Source of the DNA: Parvibaculum lavamentivorans DS-1
GTDB taxonomy: Bacteria > Pseudomonadota > Alphaproteobacteria > Parvibaculales > Parvibaculaceae
DNA length: 64,000 bases
Assembly: GCF_000017565.1 (NCBI RefSeq)
Contig: NC_009719.1
Span: 2,897,001-2,961,000, forward strand
Reading direction: 5' to 3'
Of this stretch, positions 15,560 through 24,220 are shown piece by piece. A program made the position numbers and the translations under genes. A model generated the notes under the pieces. It saw only the letters and a list, made by a program, of their open reading frames with translations, had not been told where the DNA came from and did not search any database. Numbering within the stretch: the first letter of the stretch is position 1; each line of letters opens with the position of its first letter.

Positions 15560-17899
15560 ATGGTGAAGTTCGGTGTGGGGCAGCCGGCGCGGCGCGTCGA
15601 GGACATGCGGCTGATTTCGGGCAAGGGGCGGTTTACCGACGATATTTCGCTTCCGAACGAGGCGCATGCCTACATGGTGCGGAGCCCGCGTGCCCATGCC
15701 GTCATCACCGGCATCGACGCGGAAGACGCGAAGGCGGCGCCGGGCGTGATCGCGGTCATCACCGGCGCGGATGCGGAAGCGGCGGGGCTCGGCATCGTCG
15801 CGAGCCCGGCGGCGGACATGCTGAAGAACAAGGACGGGACGGCGATCTTCAAGACCACGCGCAACCTGATCTCGCGGGAGCGGGTGCGCCATGTCGGCGA
15901 CACGGTGGCGGTGATCGTTGCCGAGACGGCGGCGCAGGCACGCGACGCGGCGGAACTTCTCATCATCGACTATGACGATCTGCCGTCGGTCGCGGATACG
16001 GCAGGCGCCATTGCCGATGGCGCGCCGGTGATCTGGGAGGAGAACGGCAGCAACCTTGCCTATGACTGGGAGATCGGCGACGCCGCGAAAGTGGAAGAGG
16101 GCTTGAAGGCCGCGCATCACGTGACGCGGATCAAGCTCATCAACAACCGCATCGTCGTGAACGCGATGGAGCCGCGCGCGGCGCTCGGACATTACGAGGC
16201 GGACCGCGACCACTACACGCTCTATACCGGCAGCCAGGGCGTGCATTCGATGCGCAACTATATCGCGCAGTTCTCGCTCAAGATTCCGGTCGAGAAGCTG
16301 CGCGTGGTGACGGAAGATGTGGGCGGCGGCTTCGGCATGAAGACCTTCGTCTATCCCGAATATCCGCTGGTGCTTTATGCGTCGAAGCTGACGGGGCGGC
16401 CGATAAAGTGGACGGCGGACCGCTCCGACAGTTTCGTCACCGACAGCCAGGGGCGCGACCATGTGACGGAAGCGGCGGTGGCGCTCGACAAGGACGGGAA
16501 AATTCTCGCCGTGCAGGTGTCGACGATCGCCAATCTCGGCGCCTATCAGAGCCAGTTCGGGCCGTTCATTCCGTCGCTCGCGCCGCGCGGCATGCATGTC
16601 GGCGTCTATATGGTGCCGGCGATGCATAACCGCGTGCGCGCGGTCTATACGAACACGGTGCCGGTGGACGCCTATCGCGGGGCGGGACGGCCGGAAGCTT
16701 CCTATGTGATCGAACGGCTGATGGAGAAGGCGGCGCGGGAGATGAACCTTGCGCCGGACGAAATCCGCCGGCGCAATTTCGTGCCGCCGAGCGCGATGCC
16801 GCTCAATGCGCCGCCGTCGCTGCCTTTCGACTCCGGCGATTTCGAGCGCAACCTCAACGATGCGATGAAGCGCGCCGATGTGACGGGCTTCGAGGCGCGG
16901 CGCGCGGCGGCGGCGAAAGAAGGCAAGCTGCTCGGACTCGGCTACAGCTATTACGTGGAACGGACGGCGGCGGGCATGACCGATTATGCGCGTATCGCCG
17001 TCGACGGGAAGGACGGCATCGTGCATGTCTGGACCGGACAGCAGACGAACGGGCAGGGCCACGAGACGGCGTGGACACAGCTCATCTCGTCGCGGCTCGG
17101 CGTGGAGGCGGAAAAGATCAAGGTGCATCTTGGCGACTCGGACGTGTTGCCGGGCGGCGCGGGCACGGGCGGATCGAAGGCCGTCTACATGGTGTCGGGC
17201 GCGATTTCCGACGCGGGCGACAAGCTGATCGAGAAGGGACGCGAGATTGCGGCGAACGAACTCGAAGCGGCGAAGGCCGACATCGAGTATCGAGGTGCGG
17301 ACGGCGAGCCTGTGTTCGCGGTGGCGGGCACGGACAAGGTGATCGACCTGTTCGCGGTGGCGCGGCTCGCAGAGGGGCAGGCCGATCTCGGCGAGTTCGC
17401 GGGCGACGGCGAATATTCGCAGAAGGGCAACACGTTCCCGAACGGCGCTCATATCTGCGAGGTCGAGATCGACACGGATACCGGCGTCTATCATGTGACG
17501 CGGTTTACGGCTGTCGACGATTTCGGGCAGATCCTCAATCCGATGCTGGTGGCGGGGCAGGTGCATGGCGGCATCGTGCAGGGGCTCGGCCAGGCGATGG
17601 GCGAGCATGCGGTCTACGATGCGAACGGCCAGCTCGTGACCGGCTCCTTCATGGATTACTGGATGCCGCGTGCGGGCGATTTCCCGCATTTCGATGTGAG
17701 CTACAACGAGATTCCGGCGCAGTCGAACGCGCTGGGCGTGAAAGGTGCGGGTGAAGCCGGGACAGTCGGCGCGCCGGCGGCCTTCATCAACGCGGTGATC
17801 GACGCGCTTCGGCCATACGGGATCGAGGAAATCGACATGCCGGTGACGCCGCTGAAACTCTGGAATATCGTGCGGGGCGAGCGCAGCGCGGCGGAGTAG
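15560..17899 (+). CDS. Xanthine dehydrogenase-family molybdopterin-binding subunit (form II CoxL-like)
   Basis: A 779-residue large subunit of a molybdenum hydroxylase. The N-terminal a/b hammerhead domain (GKGRFTDDI onward) is followed by the two cofactor-binding domains. The active-site loop reads AYRGAGR at 371-377, the form II CoxL-like sequence and not the AYRCSFR of true CO dehydrogenase. The catalytic base is E732 in KGAGEAG (728-734). GGGFGMK and TGQQTNGQGHETA are cofactor contacts. The FAD (M) and 2Fe-2S (S) subunit genes that normally adjoin are absent. The substrate is unknown, and CO oxidation is unlikely. AAAGAGG precedes the ATG. Confidence 0.92.
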   Translation: MVKFGVGQPARRVEDMRLISGKGRFTDDISLPNEAHAYMVRSPRAHAVITGIDAEDAKAAPGVIAVITGADAEAAGLGIVASPAADMLKNKDGTAIFKTTRNLISRERVRHVGDTVAVIVAETAAQARDAAELLIIDYDDLPSVADTAGAIADGAPVIWEENGSNLAYDWEIGDAAKVEEGLKAAHHVTRIKLINNRIVVNAMEPRAALGHYEADRDHYTLYTGSQGVHSMRNYIAQFSLKIPVEKLRVVTEDVGGGFGMKTFVYPEYPLVLYASKLTGRPIKWTADRSDSFVTDSQGRDHVTEAAVALDKDGKILAVQVSTIANLGAYQSQFGPFIPSLAPRGMHVGVYMVPAMHNRVRAVYTNTVPVDAYRGAGRPEASYVIERLMEKAAREMNLAPDEIRRRNFVPPSAMPLNAPPSLPFDSGDFERNLNDAMKRADVTGFEARRAAAAKEGKLLGLGYSYYVERTAAGMTDYARIAVDGKDGIVHVWTGQQTNGQGHETAWTQLISSRLGVEAEKIKVHLGDSDVLPGGAGTGGSKAVYMVSGAISDAGDKLIEKGREIAANELEAAKADIEYRGADGEPVFAVAGTDKVIDLFAVARLAEGQADLGEFAGDGEYSQKGNTFPNGAHICEVEIDTDTGVYHVTRFTAVDDFGQILNPMLVAGQVHGGIVQGLGQAMGEHAVYDANGQLVTGSFMDYWMPRAGDFPHFDVSYNEIPAQSNALGVKGAGEAGTVGAPAAFINAVIDALRPYGIEEIDMPVTPLKLWNIVRGERSAAE

Positions 17900-19491: not shown

Positions 19492-20934
19492 ATGAGAGAC
19501 AACCCCGAAGGTGAAGCCATCGAATGCGACGTGCCAGCGCGGCTAGACCGGCTGCCATGGGGACGCTTCCATACGCTGGTTGTGGCCGCGCTCGGTATCA
19601 CGTGGATACTCGACGGATTGGAAGTGACGCTGGCGGGGGCTGTCGCCGGCGCGTTGCGGGAGAGCCCGTCGCTCGACATGAACGCGTCGGATATCGGGCT
19701 CGCCGCAAGCGCCTATCTTGTCGGCGCGGTTTTTGGAGGCGTCTTTTTCGGCTGGCTTACCGACAGGTTCGGACGGCGGAAACTGTTTTTCATCACGCTG
19801 GCGCTTTACGTTGCTGCGACAATCGCCACGGCATTTTCCTGGAGCCTTGCGAGCTTCGCCTTTTTCCGATTTTTGACCGGGGCGGGGATCGGCGGCGAAT
19901 ACACGGCAATCAATTCGACAATCCAGGAACTCATTCCGGCGCGCTTCCGCGGGTGGACCGATCTTGCGATCAATGGAAGCTTCTGGCTCGGTGCGGCGCT
20001 GGGTGCGGGGTTATCCATCGTCCTTCTCGACCCGGACATTGCCGGTGGAGACCTCGGTTGGCGGCTTTGCTTCTTCATTGGCGGCGTTCTCGGGCTTTTC
20101 ATTTTTGCGATGCGGTTCTGGCTGCCGGAAAGCCCTCGCTGGCTGATGACGCATGGACGCGTCGCCGAGGCGAGCGGCATCCTCGCCGATATCGAGGGGC
20201 AGTATCGCAGACGGGGGCACGAGCTTGCCGAGGAAGGACTCGAATGCATAAAGCTGCGGCAGCACAGACCGCTGCGCGTTCGCGAGATTTTCCATACGCT
20301 GTTTCAGGTGCATCGCCGCCGCGCGCTGGTTGGGCTGGCGCTCATGTCGGCACAAGCCTTCTTCTACAATGCGATCTTCTTCACCTATGCGCTGGTGCTG
20401 ACGGATTTCTACGATATTCCGGCGGCGCAGGTCGGCTGGTACATCCTGCCCTTCGCGGCGGGGAATTTTTTCGGGCCGCTTATTCTTGGGCGGCTGTTCG
20501 ACACGGTGGGGCGGCGGATCATGATCGCATCCACTTACGCAATATCGGGCGTATTGCTTGCCTGCAGTGGCTATATGTTCGCCGAAGGGCTGCTGACCGC
20601 GCAGACACAGACGATTGCCTGGATGGTGATCTTCTTCTTCGCGTCAGCGGCGGCGAGCTCCGCCTATCTGACAGTGAGCGAGACCTTTCCGCTGGAAATG
20701 CGCGCGGTGGCGATTGCCGTTTTCTACGCCGTTGGGACGGGGCTCGGCGGGGTGGCAGGGCCGGCGCTCTTCGGATGGCTGATCGAATCCGGCTCGCGCG
20801 ACGCGGTGTTCGGCGGATACCTGGTGGGAGCAGGCTTCATGACAGCCGCAGCAATCGTGCAGGCGATCTGGGGCGTTGCCGCGGAACGCCAGGCTCTCGA
20901 GACAGTGACGAAGCCGCTGAGGGCGTGGGACTGA
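19492..20934 (+). CDS. MFS transporter, metabolite:H+ symporter / sugar transporter type
   Basis: A 480-residue inner-membrane permease with twelve predicted membrane segments. The loop 2-3 signature GWLTDRFGRRKLFF and its repeat LGRLFDTVGRRIM between segments 8 and 9 mark the major facilitator superfamily. WLPESPRWL after segment 6 and ETFPLEMRAVA near segment 10 are typical of the sugar and aromatic-acid branch. The start at 19492 follows GGGAGG; an upstream TTG at 19426 lacks such a site. The substrate is unknown. Confidence 0.9.
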   Translation: MRDNPEGEAIECDVPARLDRLPWGRFHTLVVAALGITWILDGLEVTLAGAVAGALRESPSLDMNASDIGLAASAYLVGAVFGGVFFGWLTDRFGRRKLFFITLALYVAATIATAFSWSLASFAFFRFLTGAGIGGEYTAINSTIQELIPARFRGWTDLAINGSFWLGAALGAGLSIVLLDPDIAGGDLGWRLCFFIGGVLGLFIFAMRFWLPESPRWLMTHGRVAEASGILADIEGQYRRRGHELAEEGLECIKLRQHRPLRVREIFHTLFQVHRRRALVGLALMSAQAFFYNAIFFTYALVLTDFYDIPAAQVGWYILPFAAGNFFGPLILGRLFDTVGRRIMIASTYAISGVLLACSGYMFAEGLLTAQTQTIAWMVIFFFASAAASSAYLTVSETFPLEMRAVAIAVFYAVGTGLGGVAGPALFGWLIESGSRDAVFGGYLVGAGFMTAAAIVQAIWGVAAERQALETVTKPLRAWD

Positions 20935-20975
20935 GGCAGGGAGAAAAAATGCCCTCAAAATTCATCCTGTTTTGT

Positions 20976-20988
20976 TGACATTTTGTCA
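20976..20988. promoter_or_regulatory. Inverted repeat TGACA-TTT-TGTCA before the TetR gene
   Basis: A 13-bp inverted repeat lies 21 bp before the TetR start and overlaps a perfect TTGACA -35 box (20975-20980). A repressor bound here would block the promoter, which fits autoregulation. No clear -10 box follows at 16-18 bp, so the promoter reading is tentative. Confidence 0.45.
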
Positions 20989-21009
20989 TTTTGATCCAAA
21001 GCTTTCTTC

Positions 21010-21693
21010 ATGACCACGGAGGAAGCGGGTTCCAGAACCCGAGAAGCCGCTGAAGCGGCCATTCTGGAGGATCGGCAAACAGGAGAGGCCACTGCCCCTG
21101 ACGAGGCAGACGGCCAGGGCGTGGCCGTGCTTACCGGCGCGTCGCGGCGGAAACTTGAAAGCCGCCGCAAACTCTTTGTCGAACGCGGCTATCACGAAAC
21201 GCGGCCGCAGGACATTTCCAAGGCGGCCGGCGTTGGCCACGGCACCTTCTATCTTCATTTCGAAGACAAGCTCGATTGCTTTCTCGCCTTCACGGAAGAG
21301 GCGGCGGATGAACTTGAAATCTTCGTGCAGACGCATCACGCGGTGGCGGGTTCCCTGGAGGAGGGCATCCGCGAACTGCTGACGGCCATCTTCGAATATT
21401 CGGACAAGAACCCGGGCGTGCTTGCCGCGGCGCTGACGGATATCAGCGTTTTGTCGACGGGGGACACCGGCAAGAAGATGCCGGTGGACCGCTGGGCGGA
21501 TGTCTGGGCGCAGCTCATGGAGCACTGGAAGGAAACCGGCGAGGCCTTCGCCGAGCTCGACACGAGGATGGCGGGCTATCTGATTGTAGGTGCGATCAAG
21601 CAGGGCGGGGCCTACGGTTTTCGCCGGAGGCTTGAGCGGGCGGATGTGATCGAAGGAATGGCGCGGCTGTTTGTTCGTGCGCTGAAAAAATAA
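21010..21693 (+). CDS. TetR-family transcriptional regulator
   Basis: A 227-residue repressor. A disordered acidic extension of about 40 residues precedes the HTH: RRKLFVERGYHETRPQDISKAAGV then GHGTFYLHFEDKLDCFLAF (about 52-95), the standard TetR DNA-binding unit. The rest is a helical ligand-binding domain. There is no Shine-Dalgarno before the ATG. It precedes the possible di-iron protein by 44 bp and may control it and the following SDR. Confidence 0.9.
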   Translation: MTTEEAGSRTREAAEAAILEDRQTGEATAPDEADGQGVAVLTGASRRKLESRRKLFVERGYHETRPQDISKAAGVGHGTFYLHFEDKLDCFLAFTEEAADELEIFVQTHHAVAGSLEEGIRELLTAIFEYSDKNPGVLAAALTDISVLSTGDTGKKMPVDRWADVWAQLMEHWKETGEAFAELDTRMAGYLIVGAIKQGGAYGFRRRLERADVIEGMARLFVRALKK

Positions 21694-21737
21694 CGCAAAC
21701 AATGACGGTCCGAAGAGGCCGAGCGGGAGGAAATCAC

Positions 21738-22772
21738 ATGGCGAAGCTGTCCTATACGCGAGATGAGCTGATGGCCTCGCATGACTATGCGAAGCCGCAC
21801 GAAGCAGTAGGCTACAAGCTGCATGGCGGGCTGCTGGCGGACGGCACTTATGTTTCGCCACGGGTTTTGAACCGGTGGCCCGCAGTGAAGGCCTGGCAGC
21901 GCGAATTGACGGCCAAGGGCTGGCCGCTGATTGACGCGACGGTGCAACTGCTGAAGCGCGGCAACTATCCGAACATTCCGCAGGAGAAATTTCTGCTTGC
22001 TCACGGTGTCGGCCAGTCGCTCTGGAACTCGCTGACCATCACCGGCGTGATCGAGGCACGGGGCCGCGCGCTTTGCGACCTGCAGGCGCCGGACTTCCAG
22101 GCGATCATCGAAGACGATATTTCGCAGACCTGCACAGGACATTTGCACAAGGGTCTTCTCTACGCGCATGGCGCGGATGAGGGCGGCGATCCGGACGAAC
22201 CGGAATATGGCGCGCATGACCAGATGTGGTATGCGGCGCGCGATCTGTGCTTCGGAAAGGACCGGTATCCGCTGCCGGAGATACCTGAGAGCATCGGGCG
22301 GCCGGATACGGGAAGGCTTATGCCGCAGCTTCCGGCGGGCTTCGAGCAGCTTATCCTTTTGCTGATGAATGTTTTGATGATCGAAGTTCGCGCGGAGAGC
22401 TTCTTCGCGTTCTGCTGCGAGATCATGCGCGACCCTGAAGCATTTCCGGAGCGGCGGGGCGACGCAGCCAAGGCGGCGGAAATGGTCGAGCGTATCCGCA
22501 CCGACGAAGCGATCCATGTCGGCTATTTGCAGACGACGATTTCGGAAATGCGGAGCTTCACCTTCAAGTCCGTCGATGGCGGGACGGTGAAGGGCAAGGA
22601 TCTGATCGATCCGATCTGGGAAGGCATGGTGCATTGGCATTCGGTAACGCAAGCCGATTTTTCACGCGAACAGACGCGCGAGGCGATCAAGGCCGGGCTT
22701 GCGAACGCGCCTGAGGGAGCGAAGCTTTTTTCCGAGTTCGACGCGCTTGAAAAAGAGAAGCAGGCAGCATGA
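21738..22772 (+). CDS. Conserved protein of unknown function, possible di-iron (ferritin-like) protein
   Basis: A 344-residue soluble protein I cannot assign to a named family. Three helical segments carry clustered acidic residues and histidines like those of ferritin-like di-iron proteins: E125-D126-D127 with H135/H137, E216 and E220 in MIEVRAES, and E257xxH260 in RTDEAIHVGYLQ. If they fold together they could hold a carboxylate-bridged metal pair, suggesting an oxygenase or oxidase. The start at 21738 has GGGAGGAA upstream. Its stop overlaps the SDR start as ATGA, so the two are translationally coupled. Metal binding is my inference. Confidence 0.65.
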   Translation: MAKLSYTRDELMASHDYAKPHEAVGYKLHGGLLADGTYVSPRVLNRWPAVKAWQRELTAKGWPLIDATVQLLKRGNYPNIPQEKFLLAHGVGQSLWNSLTITGVIEARGRALCDLQAPDFQAIIEDDISQTCTGHLHKGLLYAHGADEGGDPDEPEYGAHDQMWYAARDLCFGKDRYPLPEIPESIGRPDTGRLMPQLPAGFEQLILLLMNVLMIEVRAESFFAFCCEIMRDPEAFPERRGDAAKAAEMVERIRTDEAIHVGYLQTTISEMRSFTFKSVDGGTVKGKDLIDPIWEGMVHWHSVTQADFSREQTREAIKAGLANAPEGAKLFSEFDALEKEKQAA

Positions 22773-23653
22773 TGCGCGACCTGCAGGGCAAGACGGCGTT
22801 CGTAACGGGCGGCGCCAGCGGCATCGGCCTTTCGATGGCCAGGGCATTCGGCGCCGCCGGCATGAACGTCATGCTGGCCGACATCAACGAAGACGATCTC
22901 GGGGTGGCCGTCGCCGAGCTGAACGAGCGGCAAATCAAGGCGGCAGGCGTTCGCTGCGATGTCGCGGACCGCAAATCGCTGGAGCAGGCGGCGGAAGAAA
23001 CCGTCGCGACCTATGGCAAGGTGCATGTCGTCTGCAACAATGCAGGCGTGGGTGCAGGTGGCGCGATCGGCACTGTGAAGCCTGGCGACTGGGACTGGAC
23101 CATCGCAGTGAACCTGATGGGCGTCGTTTACGGCACGGAAGCCTTTCTCCCTCACATCCGCGCGCATGGCGAGGGCGGACATTTCGTCAACACGGCGTCG
23201 ATGGCGGGCATGATTTCCGTTCCCGGAATGGAGCCTTACACTGCGTCAAAATACGCCGTTGTCGGCATGTCGGAGGGATGGGCGGGACAGCTTGCGCCGG
23301 AGAATATCGGCGTATCGGTGCTTTGTCCCGGCTTCGTGCGTACCCGCATCCACGAAAGCGGGCGCGCGCGGCAAGAAAAGTTCGGGCCGGCCGCGACCGA
23401 CGAGCGGGATCCCGCTCGGATCGAGGCGGCGAAGCAACTGGTGCTTGGCGGGCTCGATCCGGACCGGGTCGGCGCGCGGGTGCTGGAAGCCATACAGGCC
23501 AACGAGCTCTATATTTTTACACATCCGGATATGGCGCCGCTCTTCGAGGAGCGTGCGCGCAATATCATGGCCGCCTTTTTGCGCGCGAGCGAAAGCCCCG
23601 CGCTCAGCGGCGCGGCATACCAGACGCCGAAGGAAATCAAGGTTTTCGACTAA
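22769..23653 (+). CDS. Short-chain dehydrogenase/reductase
   Basis: A 294-residue NAD(P)-dependent SDR with a Rossmann fold. The cofactor motif is TGGASGIG at 13-20. NNAG lies near residue 92, the catalytic Ser in NTASMAG, and Y157 with K161 in YTASK. D39 region (MLADINEDDL) suggests NAD preference. The C-terminal part extends past the usual 250 residues with a helical stretch. It is coupled by ATGA overlap to the possible di-iron protein gene. Confidence 0.92.
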   Translation: MMRDLQGKTAFVTGGASGIGLSMARAFGAAGMNVMLADINEDDLGVAVAELNERQIKAAGVRCDVADRKSLEQAAEETVATYGKVHVVCNNAGVGAGGAIGTVKPGDWDWTIAVNLMGVVYGTEAFLPHIRAHGEGGHFVNTASMAGMISVPGMEPYTASKYAVVGMSEGWAGQLAPENIGVSVLCPGFVRTRIHESGRARQEKFGPAATDERDPARIEAAKQLVLGGLDPDRVGARVLEAIQANELYIFTHPDMAPLFEERARNIMAAFLRASESPALSGAAYQTPKEIKVFD

Positions 23654-23779
23654 GAGTGTTTGGAAGCCGAACGAGGCTTTCTGGAAGCGCTCCTGATCTT
23701 TGTCGTCTTCAGATGGTTGACGGCAGGAGCGGTCGCATTAGTTGATGTTGAGGGCGGCGAGCCAGCAAGGAGAAGCAGA

Positions 23780-24220
23780 ATGAAAAAACTTGCCACTCTG
23801 ACATGTGGCGTCGCGCTTGCCGCCGTGATGTCTACAAGTGATGCATATGCGCAGAGAATAACGAAGGGCCCGGAGCTCGTCAGCGCGTGTCAATCGCTGA
23901 TTGACAGCGGCTCGCAGGACGGTTCCCCCGGCGCGCTCTGCAAGAATTTCCTTGTCGATATGGTGAAGACGCAGGAGCAGACCCTAACGGTGGGAGAGCC
24001 GTTTCGTGCACGCAGGCTCGGACCGAACGAGGACGAAACGGCTTGCTTCCAGTTGCCGAAAAGCCTGCCGTTCACGGGCTTCGCTGGGCAGGTTATTGCC
24101 TATGCCGATACAAATCCGGAAATGAAGCGCGCGCCTGCTTATGAACTCGCCGCGAGGGCGCTGGCGCAAAGCTATCCTTGTACTGAAGAGCAGCTCCGTC
24201 ACGAGCCACAGGAAGAGTAG
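23780..24220 (+). CDS. Secreted Rap1a/Tai-like protein, paralogue 1
   Basis: A 146-residue exported protein with a signal peptide (KK, hydrophobic core, AYAQ cut near residue 25). The mature part has four cysteines (VSACQSL, ALCKNF, TACFQLP, SYPC) and the layout of the Rap1a/Tai immunity-like family: a short helical domain with CFxLP in the middle and a PC at the end. Known members block type VI amidase effectors, but many are orphans. No effector gene is near. AAGGAG precedes the ATG. A related protein starts at 27829. Confidence 0.65.
   Translation: MKKLATLTCGVALAAVMSTSDAYAQRITKGPELVSACQSLIDSGSQDGSPGALCKNFLVDMVKTQEQTLTVGEPFRARRLGPNEDETACFQLPKSLPFTGFAGQVIAYADTNPEMKRAPAYELAARALAQSYPCTEEQLRHEPQEE

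Follow-up and report, generated by a model that had tools for sequence, protein, structure and literature searches.

What does an operon do when it pairs a TetR-family regulator and a dehydrogenase with a protein of no known family? We met this question at positions 20976-23653 of a 64,000-nucleotide stretch of the Parvibaculum lavamentivorans DS-1 genome (the window). An operator-like palindrome is followed there by a TetR gene, a gene for a 344-residue protein that we call FER (a name coined here), and a gene for a short-chain dehydrogenase/reductase (SDR), in that order:

20976-20988, no strand assigned: palindrome TGACATTTTGTCA, a likely (predicted) TetR operator, ending 21 bp before the TetR ATG
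21010-21693, + strand: TetR-family regulator, 227 amino acids (PF00440, E 6.2e-12)
21738-22772, + strand: FER, 344 amino acids, no named family, predicted ferritin-like fold (from AlphaFold, structural matches and conservation)
22769-23653, + strand: SDR, 294 amino acids (PF00106, E 7.9e-51)

The three open reading frames (ORFs) lie where the original prediction had placed them, and the last two are coupled as it said, the stop codon of FER overlapping the SDR start through ATGA. The regulator has a TetR_N helix-turn-helix domain. The SDR is of the classical type, both by its Pfam match and by the stretches TGGASGIG and YTASK in its translation, which we take to be the motifs of that class, and its nearest PDB chains are the C-alpha-dehydrogenases 4ya6 and 4yae. 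Our answer to the question is a tentative one, which we hold at a little less than an even chance: when induced, the operon would help to hydroxylate an alkyl or alicyclic compound, dehydrogenate the product and pass it through a Baeyer-Villiger oxidation, with FER as a ferritin-like di-metal hydroxylase under TetR control.

The FER family and its predicted fold

Neither Pfam nor NCBIfam assigns FER to a family at E <= 1, and a PDB search by its single sequence or by a 40-sequence profile gave no match at E <= 10, in agreement with the original claim that it belongs to no known family. Plasmid records likewise gave no route to one. When 40 FER members were compared with Pfam, 12 models appeared at E <= 1, none convincing; the best were Mn_catalase (0.013, two members) and Ferritin_2 (0.057, three members). 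The NCBIfam scan left out the second ORF of locus L027 and the luciferase-type ORF of L014. We found no paper on FER in the literature searched, whose coverage leaves out most subscription papers.

The gene is single-copy in its own one-contig genome (3,914,745 bases). A scan of genome contigs gave 66 related loci, 50-92% identical (67 with the window's own), which include Parvibaculum, other Rhodobiaceae, uncultured Alphaproteobacteria, Caulobacteraceae, SAR86 and a Pseudomonadales record. FER is present in 37 of 40 genomes of the window's order, and in 26 of the 27 with at least 90% completeness and at most 5% contamination. In an evenly drawn sample of the phylum it occurs in 1/398 genomes, namely the window's own. 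Conservation was assessed in alignment A1, made of P0001 and 39 of the 66 related loci; the 27 left out were near copies, truncated matches, L061 (with an internal stop in the range taken), L063 and L067. A second alignment, A2, holds P0001 and 34 loci, L063 included.

The AlphaFold models of FER (pLDDT 93.3) and of a SAR86-type homologue from L060 that is 52% identical to it (pLDDT 94.5) both suggest a four-helix bundle of the ferritin type, although Foldseek alone gave no significant match. The structural Z scores come from re-alignment of Foldseek's candidates. By this measure the top match of both models is the aldehyde-deformylating oxygenase (ADO) 8fhc (Z 13.2, root-mean-square deviation 3.1 over 197 residues for FER; Z 13.6, 3.2 and 199 for the homologue), followed by the tRNA hydroxylase MiaE (Z 12.4 and 13.0). 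All of the best 50 matches listed for each model are ferritin-like or haem-oxygenase-like by title or by known family, and the matches listed include R2 subunits, multicomponent monooxygenases, UndA, HrmI, CADD, BesC, AurF, CmlI and ferritins. Because helical bundles with Z below about 13 may reflect a mere common arrangement, we consider a ferritin-like fold likely rather than proved, and FER is probably a new, divergent family within that fold.

None of the nearest structures accounts for FER by sequence. ADO (8fhc, 5ux1) is the best structural match, but at 11-13% identity it has no sequence match with FER, which differs in its long N-terminal and loop additions, its single ExxH and its SDR and TetR partners. 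MiaE (6zma, 8afj) resembles FER in fold, and its IEAR aligns with the IEAR around FER E106 in a local profile alignment that is not significant (hhalign, P 0.0037, probability 8.9%); however, no tested FER member matched the Pfam MiaE model, and the gene context differs. The N-oxygenases AurF and CmlI share the ferritin-like di-iron fold (Z 9.3 and 9.8), and FER E216 and E257xxH260 fall on the helix-3 Glu and helix-4 ExxH of the AurF family (hhalign local alignment, P 0.027, probability 1.8%, not significant), whereas the helix-2 ExxH of these proteins is absent from FER. The haem-oxygenase-like di-metal oxidases (HDOs) UndA, HrmI, CADD and BesC, among the structural matches listed, rank below ADO and MiaE.

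A candidate metal site emerges from the residues that never vary. E106, H135, E216, E220, E257 and H260 are invariant in 40/40 sequences and sit on predicted helices (93-107, 133-138, 200-230 and 237-273). Of the E/D/H clusters proposed earlier, H135, E216, E220, E257 and H260 therefore stand, as nearly does D127 (38/40), whereas E125 (6/40) and H137 (12/40) do not; E106 had not been named. The likeness to a di-iron site also stands in part: the invariant Glu and His residues lie on bundle helices, but of two canonical E...ExxH halves only E257xxH260, the sole ExxH in FER, is present. The canonical di-iron class (R2, BMM, rubrerythrin and MiaE type) has the motif E-ExxH-E-ExxH, with one ExxH on helix 2 and one on helix 4. 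In helix 2 of FER, position 132, three before H135, is non-acidic and there is no ExxH, so we do not file FER as a canonical di-iron protein. Our putative ligand set is four carboxylates and two His, with no carboxylate on helix 2, and we put it forward as a proposal because 11 further Asp, Glu or His residues are also invariant in the 40 sequences. With this set FER may carry a di-iron or other di-metal site. A review gives ligand sets of ferritin-like oxygenases ranging from four carboxylates and two His to one and nine, and places the three His and three carboxylates of the HDOs on core helices 1, 2 and 3 (PMC13108848).

The probable operator and the genes behind its copies

The partners of FER recur in its relatives. 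At least 52 of the 67 loci have a TetR relative on the same strand no more than 5 kb upstream of FER, at least 46 an SDR relative downstream, and at least 25 a luciferase-type flavin monooxygenase as well; these are lower bounds because some loci end at contig edges. The luciferase-type copies are 79-100% identical to that of L026 (PF00296), a protein that matches bacterial luciferases, which are alkanal monooxygenases by name, in the PDB. The window's operon is without this gene, and a 65% relative is found elsewhere in its genome. In the SAR86-type loci L056, L057, L059 and L060, a glyoxalase-fold protein follows FER and replaces both SDR and TetR (PF13468 in L056).

The TGACA-N3-TGTCA repeat that had been likened to an operator is also real and conserved. 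The window contains its wider form, TGAYANNNTRTCA, once (mean 0.04 in shuffles), and the 737,697 bases of the 67 loci contain it 49 times: 34 copies precede the TetR gene, 14 lie between TetR and FER, and one precedes FER in L045, in which TetR was not found. Since none of the 49 falls outside the control region of the operon, the pattern expected of a TetR-family autoregulator, an operator is strongly supported, and conservation in relatives shows that the palindrome is not chance. It is present in 48 of the 53 loci with TetR, the others being L024 (truncated), L027, L031, L042 and L065. The palindrome overlaps a TTGACA box, as originally noted, but a scan of 20850-23900 found no sigma-70-like promoter, and we rejected a sigma-70 promoter at this box. 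Taken as a -35 element (20975-21010), it would put the transcription start at about the TetR ATG and give a leaderless message; no -10 was found.

To scan whole genomes we used the AT-spacer form TGAYAWWWTRTCA, adopted after the operon sites had been seen. In the P. lavamentivorans genome, TGACANNNTGTCA occurs in four places, three of them with G in the spacer, which we took as chance. TGAYAWWWTRTCA itself occurs three times, against about 0.23 expected from base composition: at the FER operon; at genome position 1759100, 15 bp before an ORF of 606 amino acids; and at 1069912, where a TonB-receptor ORF starts 74 bp further on, with an MFS gene next to it downstream. The best PDB match of the 606-residue protein is 5mq6, followed by phenylacetone monooxygenase, and by these matches it is a predicted type I Baeyer-Villiger monooxygenase (BVMO). 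For comparison, 3 Baeyer-Villiger, 9 P450 and 44 COG1028 genes are counted among 3,654 in the genome paper (PMC3368416). The same genome has six AurF-family matches, four of them over the cut-off and FER not among them; one adjoins the palindrome-bearing Baeyer-Villiger gene (L125 2910-4181; genome 1756191-1756994).

Across the 40 genomes of the order, we counted 110 sites, whereas the reversed pattern gave 2. By position, 35 were assigned to FER operons, and the other 75 (in 74 stretches) were examined. Four of these lie at the operon's TetR gene (L157, at a contig edge, L223, L197 and L200); in L197 (genome G417) and L200 (G418), TetR and palindrome are kept without FER or SDR, and a Rap1a-like gene comes next. 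Of the 71 non-operon sites, 26 precede FMO/BVMO-like genes (four types), 9 (in 8 stretches) precede P450 genes, 11 precede SDR genes distinct from that of the operon, 4 the TonB receptor and 1 an ABC-permease-like ORF. At seven sites a UbiH-like gene diverges opposite the P450 gene (type P450_a), so the target there may be either gene. The classes were assigned by tblastn to representatives from the same stretches, 15 of which were typed by Pfam. These counts are descriptive rather than a blind test, because the queries came from genes beside sites, and the related genomes are not independent. Binomial figures, which treat the sites as independent, were set aside.

A second lineage, of 18 genomes with more distant FER loci, has 57 sites, whereas the reversed pattern occurs once; none of the 57 is in the genome of L031. 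We examined 56, the remaining one (G442 C12:440870) mapping onto the L039 operon. Ten lie at the operon and 46 elsewhere; of the latter, 14 precede FMO/BVMO-like genes, 6 precede P450 genes, 5 a further luciferase-type gene and 6 Coq4-like genes. In L241 one site stands between two diverging genes, one for an AurF-family di-iron protein (a match just above the cut-off) and the other for an acyl-CoA synthetase. In a class-wide control of 96 genomes, the palindrome was absent from 44 and present in 52; it was commonest in small genomes, and three genomes of 3.7-5.4 Mb hold 7-9. Given this control, the case for a regulon rests on the identity of the genes behind the sites more than on the number of sites.

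Two of these genes deserve mention. The best PDB match of a CYP153A-like protein in L199 is CYP153A7, and a P450 of the second lineage (L244) is 69% identical to the CYP153A-like query. The gene in L199 carries two sites and belongs to G418, a 99% complete genome without FER in which TetR is kept, as if the P450 stood in for FER, which one genome cannot show. CYP153A-like genes behind the site in two lineages point to hydrocarbons.

Two ideas about the operon's membership did not hold. We considered whether the luciferase-type gene and a regulated Baeyer-Villiger gene substitute for each other; this is ruled out, as genomes G409 and G412 have both. To these genomes map L014 and L066, with the luciferase-type gene in the operon, and each has a site before what we presumptively call an EthA-like gene (FMO-like by Pfam typing). 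The upstream MFS gene is not an operon member: of the 66 related loci, only L008 and L062 have it adjacent. Directly 3' of the SDR, at 23777-24220, is a small Rap1a-like gene (PF18602, E 9.6e-8); many of the Parvibaculum loci have a related gene close to the operon. Upstream of the operon, at 15560-17899, is a molybdenum-hydroxylase-like large subunit (by similarity to the Pfam-typed L026 2039-4378), with relatives upstream in 36/67 loci, of both lineages.

A proposed pathway and its rivals

How might these pieces work together? FER, as a ferritin-like di-metal oxygenase, would act on an alkyl or alicyclic compound and hydroxylate one of its unactivated C-H bonds; from the (secondary) alcohol so formed, the SDR would make a ketone. 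Oxygen would then be inserted beside the carbonyl by a flavin monooxygenase, which could be the luciferase-type enzyme of the operon in relatives, or a type I BVMO encoded elsewhere in the genome. TetR would repress the operon through TGAYAWWWTRTCA palindromes until a compound of the pathway binds it, and would probably also repress, by way of this sequence, some of the monooxygenase, P450 and SDR genes at dispersed sites. The metal, the reaction, the substrate, the binding of TetR to any site and the direction of control are what we infer from the gene order, its conservation, the predicted fold, the invariant residues, the conserved operator and the genes behind the dispersed sites. Hydroxylation by FER or a P450, alcohol dehydrogenation by an SDR and a Baeyer-Villiger step of type I or luciferase type together suggest the logic of subterminal or alicyclic oxidation. 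Alkyl or alicyclic substrates are favoured here, where the original suggestion had been perhaps a lipid or terpenoid. The original suggestion of an oxidation-plus-dehydrogenation module is supported. Overall, its observation is confirmed and extended, by E106, the luciferase-type monooxygenase of relatives and the palindrome-bearing Baeyer-Villiger-type, P450 and SDR genes elsewhere, and its interpretation is partly supported.

Several results weigh against this pathway. The FER operon has no reductase gene. Foldseek alone found nothing in the PDB at E <= 0.001 for either model, and to this are added the caution on Z scores, the two non-significant profile alignments, the missing helix-2 ExxH and the 11 further invariant residues described above. 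Among the dispersed sites, 20 of the 71 in the order and 15 of the 46 in the second lineage had no match to the query set. Eight of the 20 share one unrelated intergenic context, judged by eye and not beside an oxidation gene (L192, L198, L202, L209, L211, L214, L219 and L222); five of the 15 were typed, as an AurF-family protein, an aldehyde dehydrogenase, a zinc alcohol dehydrogenase, an acyl-CoA dehydrogenase and an alpha/beta hydrolase. A wider regulon is not universal, because 8/40 genomes of the order hold a single site (six at the FER operon, two at the TetR gene). TetR-like genes of other kinds stand, by eye, beside sites in L187, L226 and L231. Finally, CYP153 enzymes, whose genes carry the site, are terminal hydroxylases.

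The alternative that survives best, which we still think unlikely, concerns the regulon: several TetR-family repressors may share the palindrome, so that the dispersed Baeyer-Villiger, P450 and SDR sites would not be targets of the FER operon's own TetR. The other TetR-like genes and the eight sites in one context fit this, as do the 52 class-wide genomes with sites, which were scanned for the palindrome and not for the FER operon. However, the excess over the reversed pattern (110 to 2 in the order, 57 to 1 in the 18 other operon-bearing genomes) and the like gene classes behind the sites in both sets speak against it.

It is less probable again that FER is a ferritin-like metalloenzyme of another reaction, such as N-oxygenation, desaturation, C-C cleavage or a detoxifying oxidation, sharing only an inducer with the oxidation genes. 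The matched structures are varied enough to allow this, spanning the N-oxygenases HrmI, AurF and CmlI, the decarboxylase UndA, BesC and R2 subunits, and presence in 37/40 genomes of the order could suit a housekeeping role; the conserved SDR and luciferase-type partners, however, fit an oxidation pathway.

A terminal route seems improbable to about the same degree or slightly more. FER would then make a primary alcohol, or make or remove an aldehyde; the SDR would make the aldehyde and the luciferase-type alkanal monooxygenase the acid, with the Baeyer-Villiger genes as a parallel branch. The top structural match of FER is indeed an aldehyde-deformylating oxygenase, the luciferase-type protein matches luciferases, alkanal monooxygenases by name, and the CYP153A-like genes of L199 and L244, whose enzymes would be terminal hydroxylases, carry the site. 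On the other side, fold similarity leaves the reaction unfixed, and FMO/BVMO-like genes, whose enzymes usually act on ketones, are the commonest class behind the dispersed sites (26/71 and 14/46). That FER is metal-free, its bundle a scaffold, carrier or cofactorless enzyme and its invariant Glu and His residues in other roles, is very unlikely given that E106, H135, E216xxxE220 and E257xxH260 lie invariant on the bundle helices, even with no significant sequence link to a metalloprotein, many other polar residues also invariant and PqqC, a cofactorless enzyme, among the structural matches listed.

The preferred pathway also has a bolder form, which we regard as improbable. In it, FER would be a soluble di-metal hydroxylase of a new class, with one carboxylate moved from helix 2 to the helix-3 ExxxE. 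It would fill the place of the missing alkyl or alkane hydroxylase of Parvibaculales that works subterminally and forms secondary alcohols, and one TetR would also control Baeyer-Villiger, P450, SDR and transport genes.

Known pathways and what FER may mean

There are precedents for parts of this scheme. GkR2loxI, an R2-like Mn/Fe protein, is reported to hydroxylate alkanes (PMC10867098); it is a precedent for an R2/ferritin-like alkane hydroxylase, and differs in belonging to the R2 family by sequence, which FER does not. In Thalassolituus, a proteomic study infers subterminal alkane oxidation by hydroxylation, dehydrogenation, Baeyer-Villiger oxidation and an esterase, and its authors state that no specific subterminal alkane monooxygenase had been identified (PMC6304351); pathway logic alone links that route to FER. 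The pdc cluster for progesterone is reported to have a luciferase-like (type II) enzyme with Baeyer-Villiger activity beside a TetR gene, and a homologue of the enzyme is placed on the 487-kb Novosphingobium plasmid NC_009427 (PMC12239570). The L026 luciferase-type protein is 32% identical to the sole luciferase-type match on NC_009427, and by that figure is no orthologue.

P. lavamentivorans breaks down laundry detergents, and its order includes surfactant and alkane degraders. FER is a family without a Pfam or NCBIfam model, found in nearly every sampled genome of this one order and tied by a conserved operator to oxidation genes. The operator offers a direct readout for finding the inducer. 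If FER is a hydroxylase, its ligand arrangement would differ from that of the canonical di-iron class, and it would be a candidate for the enzyme that opens subterminal alkane oxidation, which has yet to be identified. FER may be a missing step in the breakdown of oily molecules.

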